Source: Deltaproteobacteria bacterium (GTDB lineage Bacteria; Myxococcota; Myxococcia; Myxococcales; 40CM-4-68-19). From it: DNA of 34,906 bases. Location: the NCBI GenBank assembly GCA_025358085.1, contig JANYKT010000169.1, forward strand, positions 1-34,906, written 5' to 3'. Of this stretch, positions 1,456-8,215 are shown in pieces. The stretch's first letter is position 1. Each line of letters starts with the position of its first letter. The notes beneath the pieces are model-generated. The model was not told where the DNA came from, made no database searches, and worked only from the letters and a program-made list of their open reading frames with translations. The translations under genes and the position numbers were made by a program.

Positions 1456-2661
1456 ATGTCTACTCGCTGGGTGCCACTCCTGATCGGGCGCGATGCGGCG
1501 CGTGCGTGGGAGGCGATCGAGGCCATCGCCGCCGACCTCGACCGGGAATTACCCGACGTATCGCTTGCGATGGGCCACGCGGGGATCGCGCTCTTCTACG
1601 CATACCTTGCCCGCAGCTCCGGGCGGCCGGACCCGCGTGCCGGGCGGCACCTGGACCTCGCCATCGATGCTCTCCAGCACGAGGAACTCGACGCTTCCCT
1701 CTATTCCGGATTCGTCGGAGTGGCGTGGACTGCCGAGCACCTTCGCGGGGCGGAAAACAACGCTCAGAATCAAGCCGTCGATGCGGCGCTGGTGGAGCTT
1801 CTCGCGGATGGAGATTGGTACCCTCCTTATGATCTGATTGCGGGCCTGACCGGAATGGGCGTGTATGCGCTCGAGAGAGGCAGATCAGGCACTCTCTGCC
1901 TGACGAGGGTTCTCAGCGGCCTAGAGCGCGTGGCGGAACGCCACCAAGGCCGCACCACCTGGCGGGCCGCTCTCGATCTACTCGCCGACCAGCAGCTCGC
2001 CTCGTCAAGAGGTTACTACAATCTCGGTGTCGCCCATGGCGTGGGAGGCGTGATGGCGTTTCTGGCGTTCGCCGTGCAAGCGGGTGCGAACGCGCAAGCG
2101 CTGCTCGACGAAACCAAACATTGGATTGGGGCCTTTCGCGCGCAATCTGGCTCGCCTCGCTATCCTTGCCTGATCGACGTCGAAGATCTGCGGGGCCGGC
2201 AACTGCGCTCCGCCTGGTGCCATGGGGATCCAGGGCTCGCGGCGGCGTGGCTTTCGGCCGCGCGAGCAACCGGCGATGCAGCCTGGGAGCGCCAGGCCTT
2301 GGAGATGGCCCGGGGCTTCGCGGGGCGTTCGGAAAAGGAGCTTGGCGTGACGGACGCCGGGCTTTGCCATGGCGCAGCGGGCTTGGGACATTTGCTCAAC
2401 CGGCTTCACCATGCCTCCCAAGAACCCATCTTCGCGGACGCGGCAATGCACTGGTTCGTCCGTGCGCTCGACCTGCGGCGTCCCGGCTCGGGAACGGGTG
2501 GATTCCTCGCCGCGGGATTGGACCAAAAGGGCGGCCCGAGCTGGGACAGCGAACCGGGACTGCTGGTGGGCGCGGCCGGTGTCGGGCTCGCGTTGCTGGG
2601 GGCGGTCAGCACCATCGCTCCGTCCTGGGATCGCGTGTTGCTGGTGTCTTCCCGTGGCTGA
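1456..2661 (+). CDS. lanC: LanC-like lanthipeptide cyclase
   Basis: A 401-residue LanC cyclase, which adds Cys thiols to dehydroalanine or dehydrobutyrine to form (methyl)lanthionine. The family's alpha-toroid repeats are visible as recurrent Gly-rich segments (MGHAGIALFYAYLA, GLTGMGVYALERG, GVAHGVGGVMAFLA, GAAGLGHLLNRL). The expected zinc ligands are Cys255 in SAWCHGDPG and the Cys304-His305 pair in LCHGAAG. His194 in the AHG motif matches the acid/base histidine of NisC. Length matches the family (about 400-430). ATG 1456 is chosen; a GTG one codon earlier (1453) is equally possible because neither has a clear ribosome site. The 3' end overlaps lanB by 8 bases, which indicates translational coupling. 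Confidence 0.93.
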   Translation: MSTRWVPLLIGRDAARAWEAIEAIAADLDRELPDVSLAMGHAGIALFYAYLARSSGRPDPRAGRHLDLAIDALQHEELDASLYSGFVGVAWTAEHLRGAENNAQNQAVDAALVELLADGDWYPPYDLIAGLTGMGVYALERGRSGTLCLTRVLSGLERVAERHQGRTTWRAALDLLADQQLASSRGYYNLGVAHGVGGVMAFLAFAVQAGANAQALLDETKHWIGAFRAQSGSPRYPCLIDVEDLRGRQLRSAWCHGDPGLAAAWLSAARATGDAAWERQALEMARGFAGRSEKELGVTDAGLCHGAAGLGHLLNRLHHASQEPIFADAAMHWFVRALDLRRPGSGTGGFLAAGLDQKGGPSWDSEPGLLVGAAGVGLALLGAVSTIAPSWDRVLLVSSRG

Positions 2662-5600
2662 CGACCGCGGCTTCGAGCCTTCCGGGTTCTTCGTTCTCCG
2701 CAGCCCGCTTTTGCCGTACGCCTCCTTCCTCGAGCTGGGCGACGCGCTGACCGCGGCAGCCTGCGCGGACGACGGGGCTGCGCTCGAGCAGGCCTTGGCG
2801 GCGGACCGTGCGCTGGTGCGAACCAGGCTGCGCGCGCTGATACGCCGCTCCGTCGTTCGCGATGCGCTCTTTTTGGCCTCGCCGAGCCTGGAAGCGAGAC
2901 TCGATGTCTGGGTGTCGAATCCCGATTCCGAAGCAGGACGAAAAGTCGAGCGCGCCCTGATGCGCTACGTCCAGCGCATGGCGGTGCGACCTACGCCCTT
3001 TGGCCTGTTCGCCGGCTGTTCGACGGGCCTCCTGGCGGAAGAGACTTCGTTGCGCACCGAAGGTGCCTCGGAGCTGCGACGCTATACGCGCCTCGACATG
3101 CATTATCTCTGTGCGCTGGCCGAAGACCTTGCCGCGCTGAGCGAACTGCGACCGTCTCTGCGCTGGTTTCCGAACTCAAGCCTCTGCGGCCTGCCACTTC
3201 GTCCGCGCTACATCGAAGGTACGATCAACGGATCCGACCGCAACCGCACCTACCACCTGATCGGTCTGGCCGCGACCGAGTACCTGCAACAGACCCTGGC
3301 CCGCGCCCGGGATGGCAGCACCATTGACGAGTTGGCCGCTGCGCTGACTTCCAGCGACGTCTCGCTCGCAGATGCGCTCGCGTACGTCGAGGGGCTGGTG
3401 GACAGCCAGGTGTTGGTGCCTTCGCTGGAGCCATTTGTCACCGGTCCCGAGCCGCTCTCGGCGTTGATCTCGGCGTTGTCCACACCTGCTGCGGCACCGA
3501 TCGCCTCTCGATTGGCAAAAGTGCGCGACGAGCTGCAAGCCATCGACCAGGCCGGACCCGGCGCCCTTCCCGCGACGTACCGGCGGGTGGCGGAAGGTCT
3601 CGCCGCTCTTCCCACCGCCGTCGAGCTGCCCCGCCTGTACCAGGTCGACCTGCTGCGTCCCGCGCCTTCGGCCACGCTGGGTCGCGACGTGATTGCGAAG
3701 CTCTCACGCGCTGTCGGCCTGCTCGCGCGACTCGCACCCTCCAGTCCGCGGGAAGGCGCGTTGCGGGCTTTTCGCGAGTCCTTTCGTCAGCGATACGAAG
3801 ATCGCGAAATGCCCCTGATGGAGGTGCTGGACGACGACGTGGGGATTGGCTTTGGGTCCCTCTCCGAGCTTGGCACCGAGATCTCGCCGCTGCTCGACGG
3901 CCTCGACTTCCCTATCGACGTGGCGGTACCAGCGCGGTGGGGAGGTCGCGAAGAGATCCTGCTCAGGAAGCTGCAGGCCGTCCACGCGGCACGCGCGAAA
4001 GTGCTGGAGCTCACCGAAGCCGATCTCGATGAGCTGGCCTCCGGCGAAGATGCGCGGTTGCCCGACGCTTTCGCGGCGGTGGTGACGCTGGGCACTGACC
4101 GGACCTTGCTCCTGCATGCAGTTGCAGGTCCGTCGGGCGCCCTGCTGTTCGGGCGATTCTGTCATGGCGACCCCTCGCTGCTGGCGCACGTGCGGGCGCA
4201 CCTCGCAGCCGAAGAGCGACTGCGGCCAGACGCGGTGTTCGCGGAGATCGCCCACCTTCCGCAAGGTCGATCGGGAAACATCCTCTGCCGTCCGTTGCTG
4301 AGGCAGTACGAGCTTCCTTACTCGGGCCGTTCAGGGGCGGCGAAAGATCACCAGCTGAGGGCAGCGGATCTGCTCGTGTCCGTTCGCGGTGAGAGGGTTC
4401 TTCTTCGCTCGCGCAGCCTGGATAAGGAGATTGTTCCGCGCTTGACCACGGCCCACAATTTCGTCGATGCCGACGTGACTCTTTACCGCTTCCTGTGTGC
4501 GCTGCAGACACAGGATGGGACCGGCCTGAACTGGGATTGGGGCAGTCTGTCGAAGGCGTCTTTTCTGCCAAGGGTGGTGGCTGGCGACGTGGTCCTTGCG
4601 CTCGCCGCCTGGCGGCTTTGGGAAAGCGATCTGAAACCACTCCTGCAAGCCGATGCAACCGCATGGTTCCGCTGGGCGCAGGACCTGCGAACTCGATTGC
4701 AGCTTCCCCGATTCATCCTTTTTGCCGATTTCGACAACCGATTGCCCGTCGATTTGGACAACGTGCTGAGCGTCGAGGCGTTCTGCCAGCTCATCAAGGA
4801 GCGGAAGGAAGCTCTGCTGCTCGAAACGTATCCCGGAGCCGTAGTCGAGGCGCCGGAAGGCCTGCTCACGCACGAGCTGATCGTGCCTTTCGTCTGCACC
4901 CGAACCTCGGCGCCGGCTGCCAGGGTACGTTCCTCGGCTGGGGAGGTGAAGCGCTCCTTCGCCCCCGGCTCCGAATGGCTCTACTTGAAGATCTACACGG
5001 GCGTCTCCGCGGCTGATGACGTCTTGCGGTTGGTGGCGCCGGTGCTGGCTGCCGCCGTCCAATCGAGGCTTGTGGAGCGCTGGTTTTTTCTCCGCTATTC
5101 CGACCCCGATTACCATCTGCGCCTGCGTGCCGCGGGACCTCCTGAGCGACTGCTGCAGGCTCTGCTTCCGGCATTGACCACTGCGCTCGAGCCTTTAAAG
5201 ACCGACGGCCGGATTTGGCGCATGGCGCTGGACACGTACCAGCCGGAAGTGGAGCGGTATGGGGGCGATCGTGGGCTTGTCCTGGCAGAACGATTGTTTC
5301 ATGCCGACAGCGAAGCAGCGCTGGAGATCGTCTGCTCTTTGTCAGGTGAAGGAGCCGTGGATAGCCGTTGGCAGCTCTGCGTGCTGGGTGTCGAAGGGCT
5401 CCTGGATGCTTTTGCCCTGGACGATGACGCCAGGCGGCACCTGCTCCACGCCTTGCGGACGCAATTCGCCGCCGAGTTCCGCTCCACTGTGGCTTTCGAG
5501 CGGCAATTGGATAAGAAGTATCGCGCGGACCGACTAGCGCTCGAAACCCTGCTGGCGGGCGGATCGCCGGGACTGGTGGAGAATTGCCGCGAAATCATTC

Positions 5601-5839
5601 GCCGCCGCAACCATCGTCTGGGTGTCATTGCTGGCGAGCTTCGGCACGCGGAAGCCAGCGGCGACCTCGCCGTCCCCGTGAACGATCTGATCCAAAGCTA
5701 CATCCATATGTGGACGAATCGCATGTTCCGCTCTGCCGGCCGTGCGCAGGAGTTGGTGATTTACGATTTTCTGAGCCGGGTTTACGAATCGCGGCTCGCC
5801 CGACGACGGCAGCAGCGACCGCACGGCAAGAAGGAGTGA
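2654..5839 (+). CDS. lanB: Class I lanthipeptide dehydratase LanB (full length)
   Basis: A 1061-residue tRNA-Glu-dependent dehydratase that glutamylates Ser/Thr of the precursor and eliminates glutamate to give dehydroamino acids. The N-terminal glutamylation domain starts with the typical FFVLRSPLLPYASFLEL and continues to about residue 650 (AVRPTPFGLFAG near 115). The C-terminal elimination domain (SpaB_C type) runs from about residue 770, with SEWLYLKIYTG, then RYSDPDYHLRLR and DTYQPEVERYGG. Both domains sit in one chain, as in NisB and MibB, unlike the split enzymes of thiopeptide and goadsporin loci. GTG 2654 is chosen because it overlaps the lanC stop by 8 bases and gives the correct N-terminus; an open frame continues further upstream but there it only shadows lanC. 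Confidence 0.93.
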   Translation: MADDRGFEPSGFFVLRSPLLPYASFLELGDALTAAACADDGAALEQALAADRALVRTRLRALIRRSVVRDALFLASPSLEARLDVWVSNPDSEAGRKVERALMRYVQRMAVRPTPFGLFAGCSTGLLAEETSLRTEGASELRRYTRLDMHYLCALAEDLAALSELRPSLRWFPNSSLCGLPLRPRYIEGTINGSDRNRTYHLIGLAATEYLQQTLARARDGSTIDELAAALTSSDVSLADALAYVEGLVDSQVLVPSLEPFVTGPEPLSALISALSTPAAAPIASRLAKVRDELQAIDQAGPGALPATYRRVAEGLAALPTAVELPRLYQVDLLRPAPSATLGRDVIAKLSRAVGLLARLAPSSPREGALRAFRESFRQRYEDREMPLMEVLDDDVGIGFGSLSELGTEISPLLDGLDFPIDVAVPARWGGREEILLRKLQAVHAARAKVLELTEADLDELASGEDARLPDAFAAVVTLGTDRTLLLHAVAGPSGALLFGRFCHGDPSLLAHVRAHLAAEERLRPDAVFAEIAHLPQGRSGNILCRPLLRQYELPYSGRSGAAKDHQLRAADLLVSVRGERVLLRSRSLDKEIVPRLTTAHNFVDADVTLYRFLCALQTQDGTGLNWDWGSLSKASFLPRVVAGDVVLALAAWRLWESDLKPLLQADATAWFRWAQDLRTRLQLPRFILFADFDNRLPVDLDNVLSVEAFCQLIKERKEALLLETYPGAVVEAPEGLLTHELIVPFVCTRTSAPAARVRSSAGEVKRSFAPGSEWLYLKIYTGVSAADDVLRLVAPVLAAAVQSRLVERWFFLRYSDPDYHLRLRAAGPPERLLQALLPALTTALEPLKTDGRIWRMALDTYQPEVERYGGDRGLVLAERLFHADSEAALEIVCSLSGEGAVDSRWQLCVLGVEGLLDAFALDDDARRHLLHALRTQFAAEFRSTVAFERQLDKKYRADRLALETLLAGGSPGLVENCREIIRRRNHRLGVIAGELRHAEASGDLAVPVNDLIQSYIHMWTNRMFRSAGRAQELVIYDFLSRVYESRLARRRQQRPHGKKE

Positions 5840-5951
5840 TAAGCGTCGCTGCCGAGCAGACGCCCGGCGCGGTGTTGCCCGCGAAAAGAGGACGCGCTAC
5901 GTTCGCTGGGCGTCCGGAATCAATCCGGCGAGATCCCAAATGGGAGCCATC

Positions 5952-6086
5952 ATGAACGATGCCATGCCGATCGAAAGAGCCAAGCCGCTCATCATCGGGA
6001 AAGAAACGATCAAACGCCTGAAGGCGAAGTCGGCGATGAAGTCGTACAGGACGCAGACCAGCATCTGTTCGTACTGCACGCCCTGA
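5952..6086 (+). CDS. lanA: Lanthipeptide precursor peptide LanA
   Basis: A 44-residue peptide 112 bp after lanB. The leader contains PLIIGKETIKRL (residues 12-23), matching the L-x-L-x-KETI-xx-L pattern seen in many class I precursors, especially from Bacteroidota and myxobacteria. The C-terminus reads TQTSICSYCTP (34-44). It offers dehydratable T34, T36, S37, S40 and T43 and two thiols, C39 and C42, so at most two rings. Both cysteines lie in the last six residues, as expected for a core. ATG 5952 has GGAG five bases upstream (5943-5946); ATG 5940 is in frame but lacks a ribosome site. There is no Gly-Gly cleavage motif, so the leader/core border is uncertain (perhaps after R33). The minus-strand frame over this stretch is a shadow. 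Confidence 0.85.
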   Translation: MNDAMPIERAKPLIIGKETIKRLKAKSAMKSYRTQTSICSYCTP

Positions 6087-6128
6087 GACGGTGAATCCGC
6101 GCCGCGCGCCATTGTTTGCATGCGGCGG

Positions 6129-6182
6129 CCTCCTTCCCGGGCCCGATTTCCGGCCACTGGAATTCGGAGCCTGGGAAGGAGG
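6129..6182 (+). promoter_or_regulatory. Long stem-loop between lanA and ycaO
   Basis: The outer stem pairs 6129-6138 with 6173-6182 (10 perfect base pairs). It continues as 6139-6142 with 6169-6172 (one GU), a single bulged A at 6168, then 6143-6151 with 6159-6167 (one T-T mismatch) around a seven-base loop. That is about 23 pairs in 54 bases. No T-run follows, so it is not a standard terminator. By analogy with other RiPP operons, a hairpin after the precursor gene may stabilise lanA mRNA or partly stop transcription, giving more precursor than enzyme. That role is inferred. It lies inside the open frame upstream of the chosen ycaO start, which argues against a longer YcaO. Confidence 0.7.
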
Positions 6183-6221: not shown

Positions 6222-7475
6222 TTGAAGATTTTCGGCGTCGACCAGCGACAGCCAAAGCATTTTCTCGCGGGGACCCACCGGGCGCGAAGCCCGCGTGAGA
6301 CGGTGGCCGACTACCGCCGTTTCATGCAGCAGATGGGAATTACCAGGCTTGCCAACGTCACCGGTCTGGACGTCCTTGGATTGCCGGTGTTCATGGCCAT
6401 CCGGCCCAACTCGCGTGTTCTCTCCGTGTCGCAAGGGAAGGGTTTGGATCGCGATGCCGCAGCGGCCTCGGCGCTGATGGAGTCCATCGAATATTGGCAC
6501 GCCGAGCGGATGGACCTCCTGCCGCTGCGCTTCGATTCTTTTCAATCCCTCTCGCGGCAAGCCAAGGCCGTCGTGATTCTGGAGGAGTTGCCCAGGTGCG
6601 TTGGCGCCGTGGTTTCGCACGATCGTCCTCTCCTCTGGGTCGAGGGGCACGATTTAATCAGCGGGGTGCGAACCTGGATCCCCGAAGAGGCGGTGGGACT
6701 GAACATGGTGCTCCCAGCCAGTCAAGAACCAATCTTTCTTCGCGGCGGCAATGGCCTTGCTTCGGGCAATCATCCACTCGAGGCCATTGTCCACGCGCTG
6801 CTCGAGGCGATCGAGCGCGACGCGGTCACGCTCTGGTATCTGGATGAAGACTCCGAGCGGACCAAAGCGACTCAGGTGGACCCTTTCACCATCGACGATC
6901 CATCGTGCCGTTCGGTCCTGGACCGGCTCGATGCGGCGCAGGTTCACGCAGCAGTCTGGGATGTGACGAGCGATTTGCGGATTCCAACTTATGTCTGCAC
7001 CATCTTTGACGATCCGGGGATGCACGCGTGCGGCGCCTTTTCCGGATACGGCAGCCATCTTGCCCCCGAAATCGCGCTGCTCCGGGCGCTGACCGAGGCG
7101 GTGCAAAGCCGCCTCACACAGATCAGCGGCAGCCGCGACGACATGCTCCCCGCGAGCTACCACCGGGGTCGCACCGACGAGCTGCTCCACTCCCTCCGCG
7201 AAGAAGTCGCCGAACCCGCCCCGCAATTGCGCTTCCGCGACCGGCACTCGCTCTCGACCGATACCTTCGAAGGCGATCTGGCGGTCCTGCTCGACGCCCT
7301 GGGGCGCGTCTCGTTGAAGCAGGCAATCGCGGTCGACCTGAGCCGGCCGGAAATCGGCATTTCCGTGGTCAAGGTAGTGGTCCCGGGGCTCGCCGCGTAT
7401 CACGGCCATCCCCATGCTCCGGCCTCACGCGAGCGGGCCCGCGAAAAGCACCTGGCGCAACTGGATGCATCATGA
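6222..7475 (+). CDS. ycaO: YcaO-family peptide backbone-modifying enzyme
   Basis: A 417-residue YcaO protein. YcaO enzymes use ATP to activate backbone amides, giving azolines or, with TfuA, thioamides. The three expected motifs are present: ASALMESIEYWHAER (Glu87, Glu90), HALLEAIERDAVTLW (Glu195, Glu198) and LRALTEAVQSRLTQISGSRDD, which supply nucleotide and Mg ligands in the family. The N-terminal GTHRARSPRETVADYR and VSQGKGLDRDAAAA are also typical. The C-terminus is not a PxPxP tail like that of azoline cyclodehydratases, and no separate E1-like or ocin-ThiF partner is present. TTG 6222 is chosen for GGAGG at 6213-6217 (4-base gap); an ATG at 6120 is in frame but falls before the hairpin and lacks a ribosome site. 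The stop overlaps tfuA as ATGA. Confidence 0.92.
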   Translation: MKIFGVDQRQPKHFLAGTHRARSPRETVADYRRFMQQMGITRLANVTGLDVLGLPVFMAIRPNSRVLSVSQGKGLDRDAAAASALMESIEYWHAERMDLLPLRFDSFQSLSRQAKAVVILEELPRCVGAVVSHDRPLLWVEGHDLISGVRTWIPEEAVGLNMVLPASQEPIFLRGGNGLASGNHPLEAIVHALLEAIERDAVTLWYLDEDSERTKATQVDPFTIDDPSCRSVLDRLDAAQVHAAVWDVTSDLRIPTYVCTIFDDPGMHACGAFSGYGSHLAPEIALLRALTEAVQSRLTQISGSRDDMLPASYHRGRTDELLHSLREEVAEPAPQLRFRDRHSLSTDTFEGDLAVLLDALGRVSLKQAIAVDLSRPEIGISVVKVVVPGLAAYHGHPHAPASRERAREKHLAQLDAS

Positions 7476-8215
7476 GCGTCTATGTCTTTCTCGGTCCCAC
7501 CATGCCGGTCGATCATGCGCGCGCAATTCTCGACGCCGCATACCTCCCGCCGGCAGCCGCTGGTGACATCTGCAAGCTCGTGTTGGGGCCTTCTCCCGTA
7601 AAGGCCATTGCGCTGATCGACGGGCTGTTCCAGCAAATGCCTGCGGTCTGGCACAAGGAGATCCTCTTTGCGCTCTCTCACCGGATCCCTGTGTATGGGA
7701 GCTCGAGCATGGGAGCATTGCGCGCCGCGGAACTCGCTCCCTTCGGCATGGTTGGTGTTGGCCACATCTTCGAGGCATTCCGCGATGGCGTCTACGAGGA
7801 CGATGATGAGGTCGCCGTCATCCATGGTCTCGGCGAGCACCAGTACATTCCCCTGTCGGATCCAATGGTCAATCTACGACACGGCCTCGACCTCGCGGTT
7901 GCGTCCGGCTCTATTTCAGAGACGACAAAGACGAGGCTCACCGGCTTGGCCAAGTCCTGGTTCTATCCTGATCGGTCGTGGAAGAAGCTGTTGCGCGAGG
8001 CGCCGCTGGCTGGTGTGCCCGAAGCGGAGATCGCGCGCCTTCGTGAGCTGGTGGAGCGCGTCCGTCCGGACATGAAGAGAGCCGACGCGGAGCTCCTCCT
8101 GCACCGGGTAAAGGACGATGACTTGCGCGGGTTCGCCTTCACGCCCCCCACCTTTGATTTCGAGCCGACCAAATATTGGCAGTCGCTCGTCGCTGCAATG
8201 ACGCCGGCGATTTAA
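7472..8215 (+). CDS. tfuA: TfuA-like protein, YcaO partner
   Basis: A 247-residue TfuA-domain protein. Family signatures are clear: VFLGPTMPVDHAR at the N-terminus, YLPPAAAGDICKL, then IDGLFQQMPAVWHKEIL, GSSSMGALRAAELAPFGM, and an acidic VYEDDDEVAVIHG. TfuA proteins accompany YcaO enzymes that install thioamides, in methanogen McrA thioglycine and in thioviridamide-type peptides, and are thought to recruit YcaO or help deliver sulfide. ATG 7472 overlaps the ycaO stop by four bases, so the two are made together. This pairing is the main reason to predict thioamidation rather than azoline formation on the LanA core. It is the last recognisable gene of the operon. Confidence 0.93.
   Translation: MSVYVFLGPTMPVDHARAILDAAYLPPAAAGDICKLVLGPSPVKAIALIDGLFQQMPAVWHKEILFALSHRIPVYGSSSMGALRAAELAPFGMVGVGHIFEAFRDGVYEDDDEVAVIHGLGEHQYIPLSDPMVNLRHGLDLAVASGSISETTKTRLTGLAKSWFYPDRSWKKLLREAPLAGVPEAEIARLRELVERVRPDMKRADAELLLHRVKDDDLRGFAFTPPTFDFEPTKYWQSLVAAMTPAI

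Follow-up and report, generated by a model that had tools for sequence, protein, structure and literature searches.

Does the gap between a lanB and a ycaO gene in this myxobacterial contig contain the gene for the peptide on which the neighbouring enzymes act, and if so, what would they make of it? The window (the whole stretch of DNA that was analysed, 34,906 nt) is one entire contig of a 5.4 Mb genome. A short frame at positions 5952-6086 on the forward strand very probably encodes a class I lanthipeptide precursor. This reading, already put forward in an earlier note on this DNA, is well supported, while the core structure given there should be taken as predicted.

The probable precursor frame and its operon

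Translation of 5952-6086 (+) gives MNDAMPIERAKPLIIGKETIKRLKAKSAMKSYRTQTSICSYCTP, which is 44 residues and a stop, the very short frame of 45 codons that the earlier note had described. The mechanical ORF begins 12 nt upstream, at the ATG at 5940, but we prefer the ATG at 5952 as start because the ribosome-binding site that had also been pointed out, GGGAG (5942-5946, +), is located 5 nt before it. The segment LIIGKETIKRL, previously named as leader motif, is present in the translation and, based on a leader matrix and on the equivalent block in relatives, we assign KPLIIGKETIKRL (5982-6020, +) as the recognition block. The tail TQTSICSYCTP (6051-6083, +) has the two Cys and five Ser/Thr ascribed to it, and thus the Cys and Ser/Thr expected of a class I core; its proposed boundary was placed by comparison with GG-less cores of relatives. 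GC3 of the frame is 84%. Neither GG nor a cleavage signal of another known type is present in the peptide, and no exporter or protease was identified in the surrounding gene cluster. Close copies of the peptide were found in none of 147 genomes of the class and in no plasmids.

The gene order is LanC, full-length LanB, precursor ORF, a strong hairpin, YcaO and TfuA, with all five genes co-directional and with gaps of 112 nt (after LanB) and 135 nt (before YcaO) beside the precursor. Pfam thus bears out the placement between lanB and ycaO, and adds LanC ahead of LanB and TfuA after YcaO, both of which were absent from the earlier note. The LanC-like cyclase (1453-2661, +; Pfam LANC_like, E 1.8e-35) keeps the WC(Y/H)G and CHG motifs when aligned to NisC, its WCHG and CHG matching the zinc-holding motifs, so that a Cys-Cys-His zinc site is present. 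The class I dehydratase LanB (2654-5839, +) probably starts at the GTG at 2654; if a start near 2660 is taken, the alignment with relatives begins at about residue 4. It has both the glutamylation and the elimination domain (Pfam Lant_dehydr_N, 4e-149; Lant_dehydr_C, 2.5e-62), retains the active-site motifs RPTPFG, RYSDPDYHLRLR and ERYGG in an alignment to MibB (5ehk), and carries HMWTNR close to its C-terminus. Judged from these motifs, the enzymes appear intact. YcaO (6222-7475, +; probable TTG start; Pfam YcaO, 6.3e-78; best PDB match MJ1094) is of the TfuA-associated type, its relatives adjoining TfuA, and TfuA itself (7472-8215, +; Pfam TfuA, 3.7e-44; PDB 6xp8, E 4e-38) overlaps the YcaO stop, so that the adjacent YcaO and TfuA expected for a thioamidated RiPP are found. 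Divergent from LanC, a frame of 404 residues (178-1392, -) is without a Pfam or NCBIfam match.

The hairpin between precursor and YcaO (6129-6182, +) has a fold z-score of -6.2 against shuffled sequences, lacks a U-tract and received no terminator call. It occurs in a single copy in the genome, which rules out a repeat element. A scan for sigma-70-type and U-tract signals found no promoter-like or terminator-like site between the two genes. We suspect that the hairpin has a stabilising or attenuating function, and that it probably holds the short precursor transcript above the enzyme message in abundance.

The leader block and its relatives

In many relatives, short frames next to LanB/LanC share K-x-L-x-[LIV]-x-x-E-T-[ILVM]-x-x-L as their leader block and have variable cores. 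From 21 such leader-motif frames near LanB/LanC of relatives, corresponding to 16 distinct leader blocks, a matrix of 13 residues was built that used only precursors beside myxobacterial LanB genes and left the window out. The window peptide, which carries a block of the type KxLxLxxET(I/L/V)xxL next to LanB/LanC, scores 18.3 bits at position 5982, the top of all six frames of the window (runner-up 8.9 bits). This score was attained in 1% of 200 simulated windows and was equalled nowhere in ~520 kb of other myxobacterial DNA scanned on both strands.

The peptide is nevertheless weaker than every other member, as the relatives reach 24-46 bits in leave-one-out scoring, compared with its 18 bits. 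A profile of the full precursor gives it merely 5.5 bits, and a genome-wide search with a leader profile did not list it at E 10. On account of these values we regard the window peptide as a divergent member, recognised from motif plus location. None of the curated models detects it. The model NF038153 (cut-off 22 bits) has no match to it or to anything else in the genome. The three GG-type relatives tested all pass this model (38, 27.1 and 38.6 bits), whereas all GG-less relatives tested stay below the cut-off, as does the window peptide; curated models therefore miss peptides of this kind.

In G002, a genome of the same family but of a different genus, LanC and LanB are directly followed by MLRKNASKKLRLSTETLATLNSKEPQVSVGAKTKHCPSVGCTYGCTTTFICY, in the same order as in the window. 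The leader motif is kept and the core is different, with four Cys in G002, which is as expected for RiPP precursors. This precursor was found genome-wide by the leader profile (E 1e-5), a profile that itself includes the G002 leader. A hairpin as strong as that of the window was not found after it (z -2.3). Frames of KLTLERETIRNL and KTLPLKRESIRDL type also occur in Cupriavidus and Rhizobium, whose LanB loci are more distant. In these loci (L160, 6826, +; L161, 7348-7644, -) the leader motif is followed by VW[ED]RLL and SLWTC, and the C-terminal region has a single Cys.

The earlier note had suggested aligning short frames beside homologous lanB/ycaO pairs, and had named conservation of both KETI-xx-L and the two C-terminal cysteines as confirmation. 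The first part of this holds: the leader block is conserved, the cores vary, and the G002 frame lies directly 3' of LanB. The cysteines, however, vary in number and spacing and are not a constant of the family. Nor was the pairing as envisaged, since in relatives LanB is usually accompanied by LanC and not by YcaO, which makes LanBC, rather than lanB/ycaO, the conserved partner.

Proposed product of the operon

We propose that the leader segment around KPLIIGKETIKRL is the part recognised by LanB, which would then dehydrate Ser/Thr of the C-terminal core. Ring closure by LanC at the two Cys would give one small thioether ring or two, such as Thr3-Cys6 and Ser7-Cys9 in TQTSICSYCTP. A backbone thioamide may next be installed by YcaO-TfuA, which are encoded in the same direction. 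If YcaO-TfuA does act on the peptide, a product of ~11 residues would combine thioether rings with a backbone thioamide, both of them hallmark sulphur modifications, with a plain LanB and LanC as the ring-forming enzymes. That the operon yields such a thioamidated class I lanthipeptide, with LanB/LanC rings and a YcaO-TfuA exchange of backbone oxygen for sulphur on the same short peptide, is a tentative reading to which we assign slightly less than an even chance.

The peptide may equally be made by LanB and LanC alone, with YcaO-TfuA a separate unit that acts on another substrate and is adjacent by chance, a view that comes close to an even chance in our judgement. G002 has LanC, LanB and precursor with no YcaO or TfuA nearby. 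None of the YcaO-TfuA relatives examined adjoins LanB; their neighbours are cyclase, TPR or sigma-54 activator genes, and the shortest distance to LanB is ~10 kb (L142). The hairpin could divide two units. On the other hand, the run of five co-directional genes, the gaps of 112 and 135 nt around the precursor and the empty scan for sigma-70-type promoters and U-tract terminators before YcaO all speak for a single unit. When LanB and YcaO positions were compared by eye in 195 genomes of the phylum, the window was the only case, among the matches listed, with the two <5 kb apart; a limited number of candidates was scored per genome, so that further LanB/YcaO neighbours may exist. Relatives of the YcaO-TfuA pair at 44-52% identity occur at other locations with other neighbours, which leaves thioamidation of the peptide at roughly even chances. 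A search of genome contigs with YcaO returned only relatives of 44-45% identity in actinobacteria and one of 33% in Rhizobium, none of them flanked by a LanB match.

In a myxobacterium (L128, 4264-8433) and in Azospirillum (L163, 2788-5961), pairs of the same YcaO-TfuA clade have adenylate/guanylate cyclase genes close by and possibly play a different, non-lanthipeptide role. The source genome has a second, more divergent YcaO-TfuA pair (L066; G000:C153:32817-34408).

Alternative readings of the short frame

Codon usage alone leaves the strand undecided: the forward frame scores 12.3 bits and one reverse frame 17.4 bits, in a test where true gene pieces have a median of 15.5 and wrong frames a 90th percentile of 3.2, which puts the forward frame inside the range of real genes. 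We favour the forward strand based on leader, synteny and ribosome site.

It is unlikely that the forward frame is a chance ORF within an intergenic gap. Being short, divergent and undetected by curated models, it does resemble one, but its first rank in the leader matrix against an empty background argues for a gene, as do its ribosome site, its position and its GC3. Highly improbable is a further alternative, that the true gene is the 86-residue frame on the opposite strand (5897-6157, -), the longer shadow frame correctly reported in the earlier note, with the forward frame as a by-product: although its codon score is no worse, it was rejected as a gene on finding no family match in Pfam or NCBIfam, it opposes the operon direction and overlaps the hairpin, and leader similarity and synteny attach to the forward frame.

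Relation to known systems

As a class I lanthipeptide precursor, the window peptide resembles those described by NF038153 (lant_leader_L1a), which have the block K-x-L-x-L-x-[KR]-E-T-[ILV]-R-x-L, LanB/LanC neighbours and a variable core of Cys/Ser/Thr. It differs in that GG is missing before the core, the core is shorter, the KK-L part is degenerate (KPLII) and the model is unmatched. Also similar are short GG-less precursors beside myxobacterial LanBC (e.g. L077, L078, L082 and L084, with T(S/T)PxCTxx...C), which likewise have the leader motif, no GG and a short core in which T-(S/T) precedes the first of two Cys. Unlike that of the window peptide, their genes lie on the opposite strand, upstream of LanC, are sometimes multicopy and have no YcaO-TfuA nearby. 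GG-less class I precursors elude curated leader models, and more of them may hide beside LanB genes.

Adjacent YcaO and TfuA are also characteristic of thioamide-forming pairs, as in McrA thioamidation, thioamitides and thiovarsolins (PMC8120280), and the best NCBIfam matches of the window YcaO and TfuA are models for McrA-glycine thioamidation, below the cut-off. Among the TfuA clusters of that survey, those of thiopeptide and LAP type are described with split dehydratases, whereas the pair in the window adjoins full-length LanB plus LanC. YcaO (PF02624) has been reported in some class I LanB clusters (PMC7268733), which in this respect are like the window; in contrast to it, TfuA is unmentioned in the main text of that paper, and no product is given for the YcaO-containing clusters. 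PMC12328550 cites a myxobacterial lanthipeptide paper (J Am Chem Soc 2023, 145:16924). A literature phrase search, with subscription journals mostly outside its reach, returned no paper on thioamidated lanthipeptides, and no characterised product was found for the combination of LanB/LanC with YcaO-TfuA.

Next to a single LanB, some loci contain two or three adjacent precursor genes whose leaders are almost identical (L077, 12672-13130; L078, 6588-6817; L063, 6362-7288).
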